Shown here in pieces: positions 790 to 24,332 of a DNA stretch of 24,332 nt (position 1 is the stretch's first letter; each line of letters starts with the position of its first letter). Under the pieces are notes generated by a model, which saw nothing but the letters and a program-made list of their open reading frames with translations, was not told where the DNA came from and did no database searches. The DNA is from a virus. The DNA lies in the IMG/VR virus record IMGVR_UViG_3300020421_000136, positions 1-24,332 of that record. One strand, written 5' to 3'. The position numbers were made by a program, and so were the translations under genes.

Positions 790-3700
790 TTACCTTCCTA
801 ATGCTCTAGTGTCGAGTTGACTATATACTGGTATAAAATCCGAGGGTCTCCAATCTAAAGTTACTCCGTCCCAGACTCTTTCTGCTGTAGGCCCTAGTGG
901 CGGTACCCAAAAAGGATTTCCGTATCTGTGACTTTCTAAAAATACAGGCAAAGCTAAACTTGCTGGGCCTAGCATACCACTTCTGTCTATTATTTCGGTC
1001 ATGTATTGGCCAGTGCTCATGTCATCTGTTTTAAAGTAATTTACTCCTGGGTCATCTGGACTTACTCCAGGTAACACCCAAGCTAAAAATGCTTTAAAAG
1101 CTTCTCGTATTTCTAAACCTAACATAGTTATAGGTAACAACATACCTGCCATTAATAAAATAGGCATAACGCCAGCTCCTGCTCCGTTATTTACAAATCC
1201 TCTATGCGATTCTTTTAGTGTTGGAAATACAATGGTTTTGCCATAAGCATAGAAGAATGACTTAAGTTGCCAGACAAGAGCATACCTGGGGTCGTTTGCA
1301 TACTGAGGTCTTTGTGCTGGGTTAGGTCTGACGATAGATTCATCAACAAATTGCGCTAAAGACTCATTTACTTTTTCTCTTGTAGCTTTATCCGCTTTGC
1401 CTTTTTCCCAAGCTAAGACTTCTTCGGCTGTTACATTTAACTCTTTTAAATAAAGTTGAGATGTAGTATCGCCAGCTTGGGCCTTTCGTGCGTGGTTCTG
1501 CAAGAATCTTGTGCCCATGCCCGTAGCAAATACTCTAGTAAACCTAGTATACGCTTCTAATCCAGTAACCCTAAACCAAGCATCAGATACATTTTTAGCT
1601 GATTGGCTCATAAAATCTTGTTCACCAGCTAAAACAAAAAAACTAGACATAGCATCTACGCCTATAACGCCTATCTCTCTAGCTATATCTGCAGCCTCTT
1701 GTGGACTTTTTATCATATCTTTTATGACACCAAACACATCGCTTACTTTTGCTGTTCCTCTAGCTCTTAAAACTGGACCCGCTGTGTCTTGCAAAGAAGC
1801 TATTACAGTAAGACCGAGTAAAGTAACTATATTTAAAGTCAGGCCTATATCATTTGCTTTCTTAAGTAACCCGCTTTGGATCGGTTTAATCTTACCAAAC
1901 ATAGAGTCAATCATGTCTCTAGCTTCTTCTTGTTGGGCTGGAGTTAGTTTACTTAGTAGCCTATCAAGTTCTTGAGTACCGCCGGATTGTTCAAACTCAT
2001 ATCTAAGAGCTAATTTATCAAAATATTTTTTTAAACTTATTTCTGGAGCATCAGCAAGACCTAAGTCCATAAGGGCTTTGTTAGGCACATTTTTATAGAG
2101 TTCTTTCCTAGCTTGCAAAGTTCCTATCTCTATTTCATCTTTAGCAGTAAACTCAATATCACCATTGTTTTTGTTTATTAAAGACTGAACTGCGTCTTGT
2201 ATTTGCGAGTCTGTTGCTTTCGGGTTATATCCTTTTAATAATTTTTTAAGTTGTGCTTGTTTAGCTGGATCAGATGCAATCTCAGCCACTGCAATAACAC
2301 GAGGAAAATAGTTCTTTCGTTCTGCTACGCCCATGCTTTCTAGACCTAACTCAAAATATAACGCTTGTAAATATTCTCTAACTTTTACCGCTTGCGGATT
2401 TGTAAGGTCTTTTGTATCTATCTCATCATTTGCTGCTTCATTCAGTATAGCTTTTTGTTCTTCATTAAAAGTAGAATAAAACCAACCGTCTTCTACTCCC
2501 AATATCTTGGCTACATCATTTAACATAGAATTAGCTCTTCGAGTTTTTAAAGTTATTATTCCAGCTCTGCCTGCCTTAGAAGTAGTTCTAGGATCTAAGT
2601 TAAAGAAATCTGCAATAGCAACCCCTGCTGGACCCATTTGTCTAAACCTAGTATCAGTAGTGATTAAAAGATTTCGTAACCAAGTAGGTAAGTTTTTGGT
2701 AGTTAAAAGTTTCCCAGCATTGTCTAGCACTTTTCTTATCTGTTTATCAGTATACGTTTGTGGGCCTAAGAGGCTTTCTATTTGTGTTTCTATTTTTGCC
2801 TTTACCTCATAGGGCACCTGTTCTAAGGTGGGGTTTTGTATAGAATCTTTTATTTGATCTGCATAGTCTTGGAAAGTGTCATTAACCTCTAGTCTCTTTC
2901 GTTGTGCTGGACCTAATGCATTAAATAGTTTTTGTTGAGAGTTTGCTAGTCGTTTAAACCAGGATTTAGCAGGCCCTTGGATATTACTATAAGTGGTGCC
3001 ATCAACATTTAAACCTAACTTTTCTCTTATAGATAGAGAGTATTGGTCTGCTACAAAATTATAAAACCCTTTCTTAGGATCTGAATAGTTAGCAGGGACA
3101 GTATCACCTTTTTTAATTTCTTCAAACGCTTTTAGAAGGGCTTTTCTAGTAGCAGGGACTTTTAAACTTTTTTCTAATTCTTGAAAAACAAAAGAATTGC
3201 CTAGTTCTTTTAAGTAAGCAGCATAATAGGCTCCTTCATTTACTTTAGCATTAGTCTTCATGAGAATTACATCAAAATGTCTATACTGAAGGGTCATAGC
3301 TAAAGCGTTTTCGTTATCTAAAAGTTCTTGTCTTCTTTGTTCAAAGTCTTTCATATCCAAAGTTTCTTTGATTGAATTTGGTAGTTGTGAATCCTTTAAA
3401 TTCGTCTCAGCAGATAATACTTTTAAATTTGTTGAAAGGCCAAGTTGTCTAGCTGCGGTAGTTAAACCTTTTAATATTTGTTGTCTAAAAGGTAACTTAG
3501 CTCTTTGAGAAGTATCAGATGGAGATAAAGAAGAAGACAGAGCACGTCTTCTTTTTAAACCGGTTTCTTGTAACAAAAACAAAGTTCCAGGAATGTACTT
3601 ACGATTATCTTTAAAACTAGGTTTTACGTTAGGGGTTCTAGATAGTTCATAATACTTATTTCTGCCTCTGTACTCTTTGCCTTCTTGTTCTTGGTAACTT

Positions 3701-11139: not shown

Positions 11140-11694
11140 TTATCCTATTCCTTCATCCTCGCCTTCAGGTGCTTGATTTGAGCCTTTATAGTAACCTAAA
11201 CCATAAGCTGCTCCCTTACCTAAATTAGTCGCGCCTTTCATAAAACCTAAACTCTTATTTAAATTAGCTTGGGCGATGCTTAACTCTCTAGTGCCTTCTA
11301 TTTTAGCTATCCTAGACAAACCAGTTTGAGTATCTGACATCATTTTATTAGCAGCTTTTATAGACCCGACTTGGTCGCCCCTTGCACCAATATAACCTTG
11401 GTCTGTGCCTTGAGCTACCATACCACTAAGAGCGGAGGCTAAATCAGCTTCTGTATTAACAGAGGCCACTGCATTCCTGTTTGGGTTTGAAGTAAGAGTT
11501 TGCATTGTGTCTGCATTCGCTCTGCCCTCTGCGGTTTCTATTAAGGTGTCTTCATCTTGAAATGCGTTTTCAGTCATTTGTATCTGTCTAGGCAGATAGA
11601 CATCATCAAAATAATTTTTTTGCGCTAAAGCAACGGAAGCGTTTGCTTTCTCAGATGGGCTCGCTTTATAGTCTGACTGTTTAGGCTTACTCAC
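11140..11694 (-). CDS. Small probable internal virion protein, 184 residues
   Basis: Start is GTG at 11694 (SKPKQSDYKASPSEK follows), overlapping the end of the upstream gene by eight bases; AGGAG lies about eleven bases upstream. The protein is rich in Ala, Asn, Gln and Thr. It has long helical stretches and a glycine-rich C-terminal segment (MKGATNLGKGAAYGLGYYKG, about residues 152-171) that could associate with membranes, then an acidic tail. No catalytic motif is visible. Its place between the adaptor region and the larger internal proteins suggests a head-internal or ejection role, by position only. The family is unknown to me. Confidence 0.75.
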   Translation of the reverse strand: MSKPKQSDYKASPSEKANASVALAQKNYFDDVYLPRQIQMTENAFQDEDTLIETAEGRANADTMQTLTSNPNRNAVASVNTEADLASALSGMVAQGTDQGYIGARGDQVGSIKAANKMMSDTQTGLSRIAKIEGTRELSIAQANLNKSLGFMKGATNLGKGAAYGLGYYKGSNQAPEGEDEGIG

Positions 11695-12136
11695 TTTTTA
11701 CTGTTCTCCTATATATCCTTGTATCAGTATGCCAGCCTTTTGCTATCGCATACGGTTCCAATTCAGGTACATGAGATTGTGCTTCTATATACTTACAATC
11801 GGATTTCCTAGCTAAACTTTCAATCCAATCTTGGTGAGCTAACCACTCATGCCCGCCTTTTTCATAAGTATACGCTATCCACATATACAATGTCTTGTCT
11901 TTTGTGTACCTATCCATCTCTATGGTAAGTACTAAAAACCCTATTGGTGAGGTAAATAAAAACGCTTTTTCATTTACGCAATCACTATAAACATCTTCGG
12001 GAATAAAGGTTAGACTTGGGTTGTCTGCTAATATACTTTCTATGCCAGGTTTAACAATGTTCCACGTGGAACGTATGTCAGTAAGTACTGGTTCAATAAA
12101 GTCATTAGTAGTCGATCTCCCTTCCGTATCTTCCAT
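11687..12136 (-). CDS. Possible GNAT-fold phage protein, 149 residues
   Basis: The ATG at 12136 is supported by AGGAGG four bases upstream, which lies inside the end of the preceding adaptor gene (32-base overlap). The beta-alpha pattern, with a hydrophobic strand (GFLVLTIEMDR), another strand (LYMWIAYTYEKGG) and then helix ESLARKSDCKYIEAQS and YAIAKGWHTDTRIYRRTV, resembles the second half of an acetyltransferase (GNAT) fold. Proteins of this look occur near adaptor genes in podoviruses. The usual acetyl-CoA loop (R/Q-x-x-G-x-G/A) is not evident, so an enzyme role is doubtful and a structural role is possible. A parS-like palindrome lies within its codons at 12058-12073. Confidence 0.72.
   Translation of the reverse strand: MEDTEGRSTTNDFIEPVLTDIRSTWNIVKPGIESILADNPSLTFIPEDVYSDCVNEKAFLFTSPIGFLVLTIEMDRYTKDKTLYMWIAYTYEKGGHEWLAHQDWIESLARKSDCKYIEAQSHVPELEPYAIAKGWHTDTRIYRRTVKSE
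12058..12073. promoter_or_regulatory. parS-like palindrome inside a coding region
   Basis: The 14-base perfect palindrome GTTCCACGTGGAAC (12059-12072), with flanking T and G, matches the chromosomal partition site consensus TGTTNCACGTGNAACA at 13 of 14 fixed positions; only the last A is G. Sites of this form bind ParB and seed its spreading along DNA in many bacteria. It codes for Arg-Ser-Thr-Trp-Asn in the 149-residue protein. No ParA or ParB gene is in the window, so any binding would be by the host protein. Function is inference. Confidence 0.45.
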
Positions 12137-21295: not shown

Positions 21296-21423
21296 TATTT
21301 TTTGCCTTTCTTAGCTAGTATTTTTTTCTGAAGAAATTTTGGCAAAGTCTTTTGAGCAGACGTTAGTTTACTTTTCTTCATTTTCTTTTTAGTAACTTTC
21401 GCTTGTTGTGCATATTTAGTCAT
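21295..21423 (-). CDS. Tiny Lys-rich protein, 42 residues
   Basis: The frame MTKYAQQAKVTKKKMKKSKL runs to LAKKGKK. It has an excellent ribosome site (AAGGAG, then ATAACA, then the ATG at 21423) and overlaps the small terminase by eight bases. Sixteen of 42 residues are Lys. An Ala/Gln/Leu spacer separates the Lys clusters, giving an amphipathic helix look. Probably DNA- or RNA-binding; no family recognised. Confidence 0.65.
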   Translation of the reverse strand: MTKYAQQAKVTKKKMKKSKLTSAQKTLPKFLQKKILAKKGKK

Positions 21424-21934
21424 TGTTATCTCCTTTTGGTTCTAAGTATGAAGTGTCTACGCCAGCTAGTTTTAAAAGCTCGGCATCCGGCAACCGTTCT
21501 AGTTGTTGGATCTTGTCTACATTTATATTGACCTGGGTCGCTTGTTCAGGAGCGAATAACCCATGTAGTTTACATAAGGAGTCGACCACGTTTTTTTCTT
21601 CTGTGGCGGTGGCCGATTTTCGGTGGGCCTCAAGATACATGGTGGTGGCCGTGTTTCGATCGAACCTGACCTCTTCGCGCATCTCTTCTCTTAGATACCC
21701 AATCGCTTGTTCTATTTTTGGTTTTTTAAAAACCTCGTACACATGATCCATGTTGCGGTAGCCTGCCGCCCGTCCAGCTGCAGCTTTACTTAGTCCTCTC
21801 AAATGAAACAAAACTAGCCTCTCTTCTTGTACAGAAAGCTCGGACAATTTAACTCCGGCATATGGGTAATGTGACTGAAGTTCAATTCTGTCTTCTTCAG
21901 TTACTTGCATTTCTTGATTTGCTACAAGGCTCAT
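21416..21934 (-). CDS. Terminase small subunit
   Basis: Residues 46-75 (RGLSKAAAGRAAGYRNMDHV then YEVFKKPKIEQA) form the helix-turn-helix typical of small terminases, with the signature run 'aaGY...v..v...p.i..ai..lre'. After it come an acidic helix and a C-terminal segment with INVDKIQQLERLPD, which often contacts the large subunit. It recognises the packaging site and regulates the motor. It is the first gene of the leftward block; the large subunit lies seven small genes further on. No strong ribosome site precedes the ATG at 21934; a four-codon frame (ATG at 21945) overlaps it and could couple. Confidence 0.85.
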   Translation of the reverse strand: MSLVANQEMQVTEEDRIELQSHYPYAGVKLSELSVQEERLVLFHLRGLSKAAAGRAAGYRNMDHVYEVFKKPKIEQAIGYLREEMREEVRFDRNTATTMYLEAHRKSATATEEKNVVDSLCKLHGLFAPEQATQVNINVDKIQQLERLPDAELLKLAGVDTSYLEPKGDNND

Positions 21935-22022
21935 ATCGTAAGCATATCTTATTTGTAGATGACTTGTAAATTTTTGCGTGAAAATTTTTTTTGAAAAATG
22001 TTTTCTATACCGCGTTCACATT

Positions 22023-22058
22023 CCCCACTCCCCGTGCCAGCGACCCACCCCCGACCCC
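22023..22058 (-). other. G-run cluster on the minus strand
   Basis: On the minus strand the runs are GGGG, GGGGG, GGG, GGGG and GGGG, with gaps of 2, 1, 10 and 3 bases. The 10-base gap makes it an imperfect quadruplex candidate. It is strikingly GC-rich in an AT-leaning genome and lies about 90 bases before the small terminase start. A packaging site or a transcription-pausing structure are both possible. Confidence 0.35.
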
Positions 22059-22135
22059 GATTCGTTTCTGTAACTACCTTTCTGTTTTCAGCGTTTGGAA
22101 CCTTGTTTCAGTTTTATAGCAGTGGCTCAAGGCAA

Positions 22136-22171
22136 AGGACAGACAAGCTGTCTCTTCCATATAGGTTTATG
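22136..22171 (+). promoter_or_regulatory. Covarying hairpin element, copy 1
   Basis: GACAG / CTGTC close the loop ACAAG (22138-22152), with a G-T pair outside. This is followed by CTTCCATATAGGTTTATG (22154-22171). The same loop and 3' block recur at 23480-23515, where the outer stem bases differ on both sides yet pair. It precedes the first rightward gene by about 50 bases. It may be a phage promoter with a hairpin, a put-like antitermination RNA or a leader element; which one cannot be decided from sequence. Confidence 0.6.
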
Positions 22172-22173
22172 AA

Positions 22174-22194
22174 GTGAGTAATAGGTTTACTCGC
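22174..22194 (+). other. Second hairpin in the leader of rightward unit 1
   Basis: GTGAGTAA and TTACTCGC pair over eight positions (one G-T) around the loop TAGGT. It starts three bases after the conserved block of copy 1 and ends 14 bases before the ribosome site of the first gene, so it would sit in the mRNA leader and could influence translation. Confidence 0.45.
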
Positions 22195-22219
22195 ATAACT
22201 AGCTAAATAGGAGATTATT

Positions 22220-22531
22220 ATGGCTAAACAAAAATATATCACTAGCTTCGATGTTGACACCATCACGGCTAATACTAAAAAAGATAGAGCGTTATCAGTG
22301 TCTAAAGCTGGCAACCTCAATCTGGACGCTAAAGTAGCGAACCCTACCTACGATAAGAAAGCAAAGGAAGGACCTGACATGTACGCGATGAAAAGCATCC
22401 GCGAATGTTTTGACTTCTTTATTCTTAAAGAGGACGGCTCAGTAGCGTTCAAACTCCAAGACCATATCACTCTATCTGGCGGAACAGCAGTTACAGCTTT
22501 CGCTAGAGAATGGTCAACGGAGAGCAAATAA
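22220..22531 (+). CDS. Unknown protein, first gene of rightward unit 1, 103 residues
   Basis: A good ribosome site (AGGAG, six bases before the ATG) supports the start. The protein begins MAKQKYITSFDVDTITANTK, with a polar first half and a more hydrophobic second half (IRECFDFFILKEDGSVAFKL, about 54-73). No motif, signal peptide or membrane span is recognised. It sits directly downstream of the hairpin element, so it should be strongly or early expressed if that element is a promoter. Its stop overlaps the next start through TAATG. Confidence 0.75.
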   Translation: MAKQKYITSFDVDTITANTKKDRALSVSKAGNLNLDAKVANPTYDKKAKEGPDMYAMKSIRECFDFFILKEDGSVAFKLQDHITLSGGTAVTAFAREWSTESK

Positions 22532-22827
22532 TGCAACTAGGATATTATCTTGGTCGCGTAGCAAGAGGGACGGCGAAAGCTGTCCTTCCAGTTACAAAGT
22601 GGGCGGCACAACAAGCAACCACATTTGCATCCGACTTCGGTCGCGGTATGGTCGAACAACCTACTATCATCAGCAACAACTATGATGAACATCGCGAAGA
22701 CACATCTGACTTCGAACAAGAGCTAGATCGTGTCGACGAAGAAATCAGACGGGAACTCCACGAGGAAGAACCTGTCCAACCAGAGCTACCAGGCATGAAT
22801 CCTGAACAACCAGCGAGGCAAGCATGA
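22531..22827 (+). CDS. Unknown small protein with acidic tail, 98 residues
   Basis: The ATG at 22531 is chosen because GGAG lies eight bases upstream and it overlaps the previous stop (TAATG); an ATG at 22510 would add seven residues without a ribosome site. The N-terminal 45 residues (GYYLGRVARGTAKAVLPVTK and on) look like an amphipathic helix. The rest is strongly acidic (DFEQELDRVDEEIRRELHEE) and Pro-rich at the end. It could be a small DNA-mimic-like or protein-binding factor, but nothing is recognised. Confidence 0.68.
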   Translation: MQLGYYLGRVARGTAKAVLPVTKWAAQQATTFASDFGRGMVEQPTIISNNYDEHREDTSDFEQELDRVDEEIRRELHEEEPVQPELPGMNPEQPARQA

Positions 22828-22889
22828 GTAGCCATTACATACCAGAGTCCATATGGGCTCTGGTTGAACATTGGAGAGCGCAATGTTAG
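22824..22889 (+). CDS. Candidate 21-residue peptide
   Basis: The frame MSSHYIPESIWALVEHWRAQ ends with Cys. Its ATG overlaps the previous stop (ATGA), and GAGG lies five bases upstream. The coding is continuous with the operon, and its end contains the ribosome site and start of the next gene, so it may exist mainly to couple translation. Too short to assign. Confidence 0.45.
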   Translation: MSSHYIPESIWALVEHWRAQC

Positions 22890-23020
22890 ACATATTCTTA
22901 GCTCTATTATCCATCTGGATATTCCTACTAATAACCAGCTTCATTTGGGGCGGTTATCAATTCATTAGGTTTATCAAATCTACTTCTCCGGTCAGTTCTG
23001 ACCATTTCAATTCTAACTAA
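22883..23020 (+). CDS. Small single-span membrane protein, 45 residues
   Basis: The ATG at 22883 has GGAG six bases upstream. Residues 2-22 (LDIFLALLSIWIFLLITSFI) form one strong membrane helix, followed by WGGYQFIRFIK and a polar tail. Small phage membrane proteins of this type act as holins, superinfection-exclusion factors or host-envelope modulators, but none can be named here. It is the last gene before the terminator at 23035, closing unit 1. Confidence 0.6.
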   Translation: MLDIFLALLSIWIFLLITSFIWGGYQFIRFIKSTSPVSSDHFNSN

Positions 23021-23034
23021 ACAGTTAGCCATCT

Positions 23035-23065
23035 GGGGCGCCTTCGGGCGTCCTATCTTTTTTTT
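23035..23065 (+). terminator. Strong intrinsic terminator ending rightward unit 1
   Basis: GGGCGCC and GGCGTCC (one G-T pair, an outer G-T possible) close a TTCG tetraloop. After ATC it is followed by eight T (23058-23065). It begins 15 bases after the last gene of the unit. This is a textbook Rho-independent terminator. Confidence 0.9.
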
Positions 23066-23112
23066 AACCAACTTATCCGCCCGCTTCGCGCCCGGAATCC
23101 ACCCGAGGAGAC

Positions 23113-23158
23113 TACTATCATACTATCACCCTACTATCATCACGAGTGCATACGAGTG
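23113..23158 (+). repeat. Short direct repeats TACTATCA x3 and ACGAGTG x2
   Basis: TACTATCA occurs at 23113, 23121 and 23132; ACGAGTG at 23142 and 23152 (10-base spacing). Iteron-like direct repeats can bind a replication or regulatory protein. Only the repeats are seen; the role is inference. Confidence 0.5.
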
Positions 23159-23190
23159 TGCCTGCATGCATATGCCACGCTTGACGATTG

Positions 23191-23470
23191 GTTCCACGTG
23201 TTCCACGGACCTGCCCCGATGTGGAACCGTTTCATGGAACCAGCGAAATGCCTGCCGTTGCAACGAACGGGCGGGGGATACCTGCCTGCGGTTCCACGGT
23301 TCCGCGTAAATCAGAACGTGCTTAATTACGGTCGACCATCGACCAAGGATAAAGAACTATGAATGAATGTTATTTTTACATGGAACCATGGAACCACGAC
23401 CTAGAATCGTTGTTGTTACAGCCCCGATTGTGTTCCACGAGTAATGGAACCATGTGGAACCACGTGGAAC
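23191..23470. repeat. Cluster of eleven TGGAAC/GTTCCA words (parS half-site-like)
   Basis: TGGAAC or its complement starts at 23191, 23200, 23222, 23235, 23291, 23381, 23389, 23432, 23445, 23455 and 23465. Most are followed or preceded by C as GGTTCCA / TGGAACC. Five include the full half-site GTTCCACG / CGTGGAAC. The cluster ends ten bases before hairpin element copy 2. One more copy lies at 22096, near copy 1. This density points to a protein-binding array. Confidence 0.7.
23330..23344. other. Hairpin GGTCGA-CCA-TCGACC
   Basis: Six perfect pairs with a three-base loop in the gene-free region. It shares geometry, not sequence, with the hairpin at 15172-15186. Confidence 0.4.
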
Positions 23471-23479
23471 CAGAACGGG

Positions 23480-23515
23480 GCACCAGACAAGCTGGTGCTT
23501 CCATATAGTTTTGTG
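23480..23515 (+). promoter_or_regulatory. Covarying hairpin element, copy 2
   Basis: GCACCAG / CTGGTGC give seven perfect pairs around the same ACAAG loop as copy 1. The block CTTCCATATAGTTTTGTG (23498-23515) matches copy 1 at 16 of 18 positions. Outer pairs 4, 5 and 6 counted from the loop are C-G, A-T, C-G here versus A-T, G-C, G-T in copy 1, that is, both sides changed while pairing held. It lies 122 bases before the start of the 141-residue gene. Confidence 0.62.
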
Positions 23516-23546
23516 TTGGATGTGGATCACTTCCGACAAACGACAT

Positions 23547-23570
23547 CACGCAGTCGTACTAAAGTGCGTG
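23547..23570 (+). other. Leader hairpin of rightward unit 2
   Basis: CACGCA and TGCGTG pair perfectly across a 12-base loop, in the stretch between hairpin element copy 2 and the next gene. It would fold in the mRNA leader. No riboswitch class is recognised. Confidence 0.4.
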
Positions 23571-23637
23571 GCGGTGTCACCGGAACGACCATGCTGGGAT
23601 GAAAAGCCCACGACCCATTACAAACGAGGAGGTAACT

Positions 23638-24063
23638 ATGGGATTAGACGTATATGCAGGGTATTTACACCCAAAACCGGAGCAACCAGATAACGTTGTT
23701 GATATTAAAGACAATATTGGCGACAGAATGGAGGCTCCATATTACTGGCGTAAGCACGCTCGGCTCCAACAATTTATGACGGAGTTGTGGCACGAGAAGA
23801 ATGGCACAAAGATGCAAGGCATTATGGGACCTGATGGGTTCAATGGTGGCAACGTATTGATCTTGGATAGAGATGACATTCTAAGCTTACAAACACAAGT
23901 GGAGAACGACAGCTTGCCGTTTTGTCCAGATGGTTTCTTTTGGGGACAGCAGTTCCAAGAAGAGGCGATGAAGGATTTCAAACAGCAAGATCTTAAGTTC
24001 TGTAAGGACGCTTTGCAATGGCTCGAAGAGGGCAAAGAAGTCTGGTATGAATCATCTTGGTAA
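23638..24063 (+). CDS. Conserved phage protein of unknown function (MGLD...W family), 141 residues
   Basis: The ATG at 23638 has AGGAGG five bases upstream; an in-frame ATG at 23599 lacks a ribosome site. The protein starts MGLDVYAGYL and has YYWRKHARLQQFMTELW (35-51), VLILDRDDILSLQ, LPFCPDGFFWGQQF and ends ALQWLEEGKEVWYESSW. This order (MGLD-, W-R-K-H-L-hydrophobic, GFF-G, -Y-S-W end) matches a family common in phages and sometimes mislabelled as phosphoglycerate kinase; its function is unknown. It is the first gene of rightward unit 2, after the hairpin element and folded leader. Confidence 0.8.
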   Translation: MGLDVYAGYLHPKPEQPDNVVDIKDNIGDRMEAPYYWRKHARLQQFMTELWHEKNGTKMQGIMGPDGFNGGNVLILDRDDILSLQTQVENDSLPFCPDGFFWGQQFQEEAMKDFKQQDLKFCKDALQWLEEGKEVWYESSW

Positions 24064-24073
24064 GGAGATAACA

Positions 24074-24226
24074 ATGGTTAAAGACTATTTTAGATCTGTA
24101 CTAATGGGCACGGGCGTTCTGTTCGTGCTCTTTGGTATTGCAACGAGTATTCAATACTCACTTTTATTATTCGGTGTCGGGGTCGGCATCGGTTCAATCT
24201 TGTATTTACTATGGAGGTTACTATGA
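24074..24226 (+). CDS. Small membrane protein with two spans, 50 residues
   Basis: AAGGAG, partly formed by the previous stop, lies six bases before the ATG. Two hydrophobic segments, LMGTGVLFVLFGIATSI (about 10-26) and YSLLLFGVGVGIGSILYLLW (about 28-47), are joined by a short turn. The end is basic (WRLL). Its stop overlaps the next start (ATGA). A small two-span protein may be a holin or membrane modulator; the sequence does not decide. Confidence 0.6.
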   Translation: MVKDYFRSVLMGTGVLFVLFGIATSIQYSLLLFGVGVGIGSILYLLWRLL

Positions 24227-24332
24227 ATACAACAACTTTGGTTAGTGCACTGACAACTGCACTTTGGATACTAATCGAGCTTATTCAGTTCGCATACATG
24301 GCCCATTTGGCCTGGAGGAATCGAAATGCTAA
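24223..24332 (+). CDS. Small membrane protein, partial (runs off right edge)
   Basis: The ATG overlaps the previous stop, with GGAGG six bases upstream. Thirty-six codons are visible: MNTTTLVSALTTALWILIEL then IQFAYMAHLAWRNRNA, with one membrane span (about 6-30). Near the edge GGAGG followed by ATG at 24326 may start another gene overlapping this one. Function unknown. Confidence 0.55.
   Translation, partial: MNTTTLVSALTTALWILIELIQFAYMAHLAWRNRNA

Follow-up and report, generated by a model that had tools for sequence, protein, structure and literature searches.

An array of short words at the start of the early genes

The window (the whole stretch of 24,332 nucleotides analysed here) is a 24.3-kb phage fragment in which the terminase, portal and major head genes lie on the minus strand. 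Where the rightward early genes begin, beside a hairpin, 280 non-coding bases (23191–23470) contain 11 exact TGGAAC/GTTCCA words in both orientations, all of which had been reported in an earlier note on this DNA. A near-exact twelfth word, with one mismatch, fills a layout that is conserved in relatives (Table 1). The word is better written as TGGAACC(A); the 6-mer GGAACC is found ten times over the array span, and the five longer copies claimed earlier are present as GTTCCACG/CGTGGAAC. The array had been judged too dense for chance, and simulation agrees: no non-simple 6-mer occurred more than 6 times per 280 bp in 60 Markov-simulated windows, as against 11 here. Across the full window, 24 TGGAAC words were counted, compared with 9.9 ± 3.2 expected. 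In the core, columns 23334–23337 and 23341–23344 of the tandem repeat are conserved in the 35 TGGAACC arrays compared, and the AT-rich part is a modest peak in the profile of the window.

Table 1 Features of the array. Conservation is the mean over columns in 35 TGGAACC arrays.
Feature	Position	Strand	Conservation	Remark
Iteron 1, GTTCCA	23191–23196	-	0.90	
Iteron 2, GTTCCA	23200–23205	-	1.00	
Iteron 3, TGGAAC	23222–23227	+	1.00	
Iteron 4, TGGAAC	23235–23240	+	0.99	
Iteron 5, GTTCCA	23291–23296	-	0.96	First of central minus pair
Iteron 6, GTTCCG	23299–23304	-	0.92	One base off; exact GTTCCA in several relatives
Core repeat, CGACC-AT-CGACC	23333–23344	+		Often CGACCGTSGACCGT; occurs with several different words
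AT-rich core part	23350–23389			Candidate melting region; 75% A+T in 40-bp A+T profile
Iteron 7, TGGAAC	23381–23386	+	0.75	Lowest of the twelve
Iteron 8, TGGAAC	23389–23394	+	0.95	
Iteron 9, GTTCCA	23432–23437	-	0.99	
Iteron 10, TGGAAC	23445–23450	+	1.00	
Iteron 11, TGGAAC	23455–23460	+	0.99	
Iteron 12, TGGAAC	23465–23470	+	0.98	

Open reading frames across the array do not keep their frame in a close relative, and spacer lengths differ among relatives by non-multiples of three. Thus, no gene explains the region, in line with the earlier reading. The array region matched no annotated phage in a nucleotide search, and Rfam reported no family over 21900–24332.

The adjoining hairpin is one of two twin elements, CAGACAAGCTG plus CTTCCATATAG, at 22140–22171 and 23480–23508, ahead of early genes. 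Only seven other IMG/VR stretches contain these elements, and in other relatives the sequence after the array differs from the hairpin of the window; they are possibly a promoter or a processing signal. Elsewhere in the window, two further overlapping GTTCCACG/CGTGGAAC copies make the palindrome GTTCCACGTGGAAC at 12059–12072, inside the minus-strand gene 11687–12136 (codons R-S-T-W-N). It is identical at 14 of 14 bases in seven close phages despite varying synonymous sites nearby, is absent at this gene position from other alignable homologues, and may be due to chance or be a clade-specific extra site.

The layout is conserved among relatives

Relatives were sought in IMG/VR through the 142-aa gene at 23635–24063. 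About 30 of those found have an array whose sites keep their order and orientation (--++--++-+++ over the twelve sites) and are almost identically spaced (for example, 0- 9- 31+ 44+ 100- 190+ 198+ 241- 254+ 264+ 274+). With the early AAA ATPase as a second query, the best 80 of 287 loci were examined and about 70 of the 80, as we read them, carry the array. In the remaining ten, no more than ~3.3 kb separates the ATPase from the contig end on the side where the array would lie, and in one of these (G059) the array is located at the opposite contig end. All 78 loci compared, from related uncultivated phages, have the array in the same place, upstream of the early AAA-ATPase gene, with its order, orientation and spacing unchanged; the comparison of word count and spacing proposed in the earlier note shows a layout that is kept. 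Among the 35 TGGAACC arrays, conservation is 95% in the columns of the words and 62% in the other columns, and long relatives have one such array per genome. Homologues lacking the array in an unchanged gene order were looked for, as was a protein under selection in the region; neither was found.

Oriented short sites in a fixed arrangement over ~280 bp also recall the architecture of an attP in which an integrase would bind arm-type sites, but no tyrosine integrase was detected in 20 records and we consider this reading extremely improbable. The earlier note had further suggested operators of the nearby promoter. An array through which a phage regulator acts on early transcription, as an operator or enhancer, would suit the position beside the hairpin at the head of the rightward early genes, and regulators also bind repeated words. 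However, the next conserved gene lies at varying distances from a constant array: the 142-aa gene is ~0.2 to 3.4 kb away across relatives, and the array is therefore not simply part of the control region of that gene. In addition, the protein region that covaries with the word belongs to a primase-polymerase–helicase (see below). Operators are thus an unlikely explanation of the array, and a role in transcription in addition to origin function is possible.

The word changes between clades

Clustered words were sought in the relatives by an unbiased search. The words assigned at 78 loci are TGGAACC (52 loci), TGGAACA (11), TGTAACA (7), TGGTACA (7) and TGGCACA (one, G016). Some clades have another word at almost every site of the same layout; the tandem CGACC core element recurs in arrays built on several of the words. 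Joint replacement at nearly all sites suggests a single trans-acting reader with changed specificity.

These changes bear directly on the partition array that had also been suggested, in which a centromere-like mimic of chromosomal parS would be bound by host ParB. GTTCCACG does look like a parS half site, and several TGGAACC relatives have the full GTTCCACGTGGAAC at the centre of their arrays, as does the window at 12059, outside its array. But the resemblance is confined to the TGGAAC clades, and the arrays of related phages use TGTAACA, TGGTACA or TGGCACA instead. The sites are mostly half sites and not a set of conserved palindromes as in the bacterial system, and the central palindrome is unconserved even inside the TGGAACC clade. 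ParB_N and ParA-type genes were not found in 20 records, which are possibly incomplete, whereas positive controls were detected; taken alone, this result would be compatible with use of the ParB of the host. A word that changes under one layout is a strong argument against a host ParB/parS ligand, and we regard this reading as very improbable. The striking resemblance to parS can be a coincidence of a single clade.

Some clusters were excluded from the counts. The apparent arrays of G017 (GAAATG) and G019 (TGGAGG) are one-orientation runs within repetitive sequence that is probably coding. One-orientation CTCGTT runs lie near the shared 142-aa gene in L060, L061, L069, L072, L075, L084 and L089; such runs (for example, those of L060 and L075) were set aside because the primase-polymerase described below was not found in the checked records of phages that have them.

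The word varies with the C-terminal region of a primase-polymerase–helicase

Besides PolA, a PD-(D/E)XK nuclease and an SNF2-type helicase, long relatives encode a protein of 829 aa that contains a DUF5906 helicase domain. This protein is an NrS-1-like primase-polymerase/SF3 helicase (hereafter PrimPol–helicase; match to PDB 6k9c, E = 1.7e-30). In relatives, its gene lies ~10–13 kb downstream of the array, which is beyond the end of the window fragment. The best 80 of 357 PrimPol loci were examined, and full-length homologues are found in array-bearing relatives. In L286 (G056), the PrimPol–helicase reading frame contains one internal TAA stop.

We scanned proteins in 40-residue windows for the correlation between their divergence and the change of word, after correction for how far the backbones have diverged. 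The correlation peaks at 0.57–0.63 at residues 751–810, in the C-terminal region of the PrimPol–helicase; its median is -0.01 and the next separate region reaches 0.35. On a shared set, PolA tracks the word at 0.33, compared with 0.61 for the PrimPol–helicase. With the AAA ATPase as backbone for both, the maximum is 0.12 for TerS and 0.42 for the AAA ATPase itself. The PD-(D/E)XK control was left out because two word classes are missing from it. The low TerS value concerns a further reading, in which the array is a pac site recognized by TerS, the small subunit of the terminase. Some pac sites are repeat arrays, and terS is nearby (21416–21934, ~1.3 kb from the array), but no TerS window tracks the word and we regard this reading as very improbable.

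The AlphaFold2 model of residues 751–810 (mean pLDDT ~76) has the element order helix–strand–helix–helix–strand–strand–helix, and the region is, according to this medium-confidence model, a winged helix. A Foldseek search with the domain model returned nothing significant; ORC/Cdc6 winged-helix proteins lead the list, with a best E of 0.14. At 80–90% backbone identity, the predicted winged helices of same-word pairs are 88.7% identical, compared with 70.2% for different-word pairs; at 66–70% backbone identity, the values are 79.5% and 67.6%. On a backbone tree built from residues 1–700, which leaves the winged-helix domain out, TGTAACA occurs twice, both times with the same shortened wing (TAVKRI/TSVKRI). 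In L283, TGGAACC recurs inside the TGGAACA/TGTAACA clade, together with the KDR wing typical of TGGAACC. There are two independent contrasts per test (sign test, p = 0.5), so that the link between word and domain is strong in pattern and not in number. A strict code of Arg for C and Lys for A was dropped, as G062 (word GGTACA/C, KDR wing) does not fit it. Repeat word and predicted DNA-binding domain thus match by covariation over few independent events.

A probable replication origin

The array is probably a replication origin of the phage, with iterons that would be bound by the primase-helicase of the phage. As the layout is kept and changes of the word go along with changes in the putative DNA-reading end of the primase-helicase, an origin, and not a bacterial partition site, is the most likely function. 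Of the options in the earlier note, the origin is therefore the best supported, and host ParB/parS falls away because the words differ across clades. The sequences themselves show that the layout is conserved, that the word changes in concert across the sites and that the winged-helix region diverges with the word; from this we infer iteron binding, melting and initiation as follows. Twelve iterons of fixed orientation flank a core that combines the tandem CGACC element with AT-rich sequence. The phage-encoded PrimPol–helicase (~829 aa) would bind the iterons through its C-terminal winged-helix domain, and the helicase, once assembled at the core, would melt it. The N-terminal primase-polymerase domain would then start synthesis at the melted core.

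The cumulative GC skew, which the earlier note had proposed as a check, has its minimum at the array or within ~2 kb of it in four long relatives (G001, G008, G012 and G013), and G016 has a local minimum. These minima support an origin but are only suggestive, since they coincide with the point of transcription divergence. A comparable array with a related word is also present in an isolate, Pseudomonas phage KPP25: 14 CGTRAC words lie between early genes, in an intergenic stretch of 677 bp, with an AT-rich core (72–78% A+T) and the same central '- - core + +', and KPP25 encodes a helicase homologue that is ~30% identical. In phiA008, no clear word array was found, although the helicase is present. 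KPP25 contains in addition 17 AGCCCAG words, 16 of them in a 9-bp tandem repeat AGCCCAGCC (L108:29864–30126).

We propose, with slightly less than even confidence, that the array and the winged helix are a matched pair whose specificity has switched several times, partly in a joint change that runs against the descent of the helicase backbone. If so, these phages would provide a natural series of re-targeted origins from which a protein–DNA recognition code could be read, and the switches might form a barrier to related phages initiating on each other's genomes. Word and putative reading domain differ in an ordered way across clades, so that the pairing is directly testable by comparing binding. 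The origin reading proposes an origin and an initiator for uncultivated phages of a widespread group and for the culturable KPP25 group, and offers a model for NrS-1-like primase-polymerases, for which, to our knowledge, origins have not been established.

Comparison with known replication systems

In the P4 alpha and SaPI Rep systems, the DNA-binding domain of the initiator helicase reads the repeats of the origin (PMC4234260, PMC7581432). The phages described here share with these systems a non-coding cluster of short words in a conserved arrangement, an AT-rich region within the repeats (75% A+T at 23350–23389) and, in the relatives only, a primase/helicase with a predicted C-terminal DNA-binding domain. 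P4 alpha, however, has a bacterial-type (Toprim) primase, whereas the relative of the enzyme here is the NrS-1 primase-polymerase; the two systems also differ in word, layout and type of genome, and binding is a prediction here. The SaPI origin is directly downstream of rep, whereas the array is ~10–13 kb from the helicase gene, and SaPIs are satellites, whereas the elements studied here encode a terminase, a portal and head proteins and are phages.

The closest solved relative of the helicase part is the NrS-1 primase-polymerase (6k9c). As far as the available part of its published description goes, NrS-1 priming needs an 8-nt template sequence that occurs twice in the genome, an origin role is only proposed, and no comparable array is described (PMC7102993). 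The replication protein of the archaeal plasmid pRN1 resembles the PrimPol–helicase in combining a primase, which is of the archaeo-eukaryotic type, with a helicase and a C-terminal winged helix, but its origin contains a large stem-loop and lacks iterons (PMC4234260).

In G011, a phage protein with CHASE2 and adenylate/guanylate cyclase domains is encoded next to a FecR-domain protein (L106:597–2348 and 2345–3550); homologues of this gene pair, at 73–82%, are present in G008, G012 and G013.
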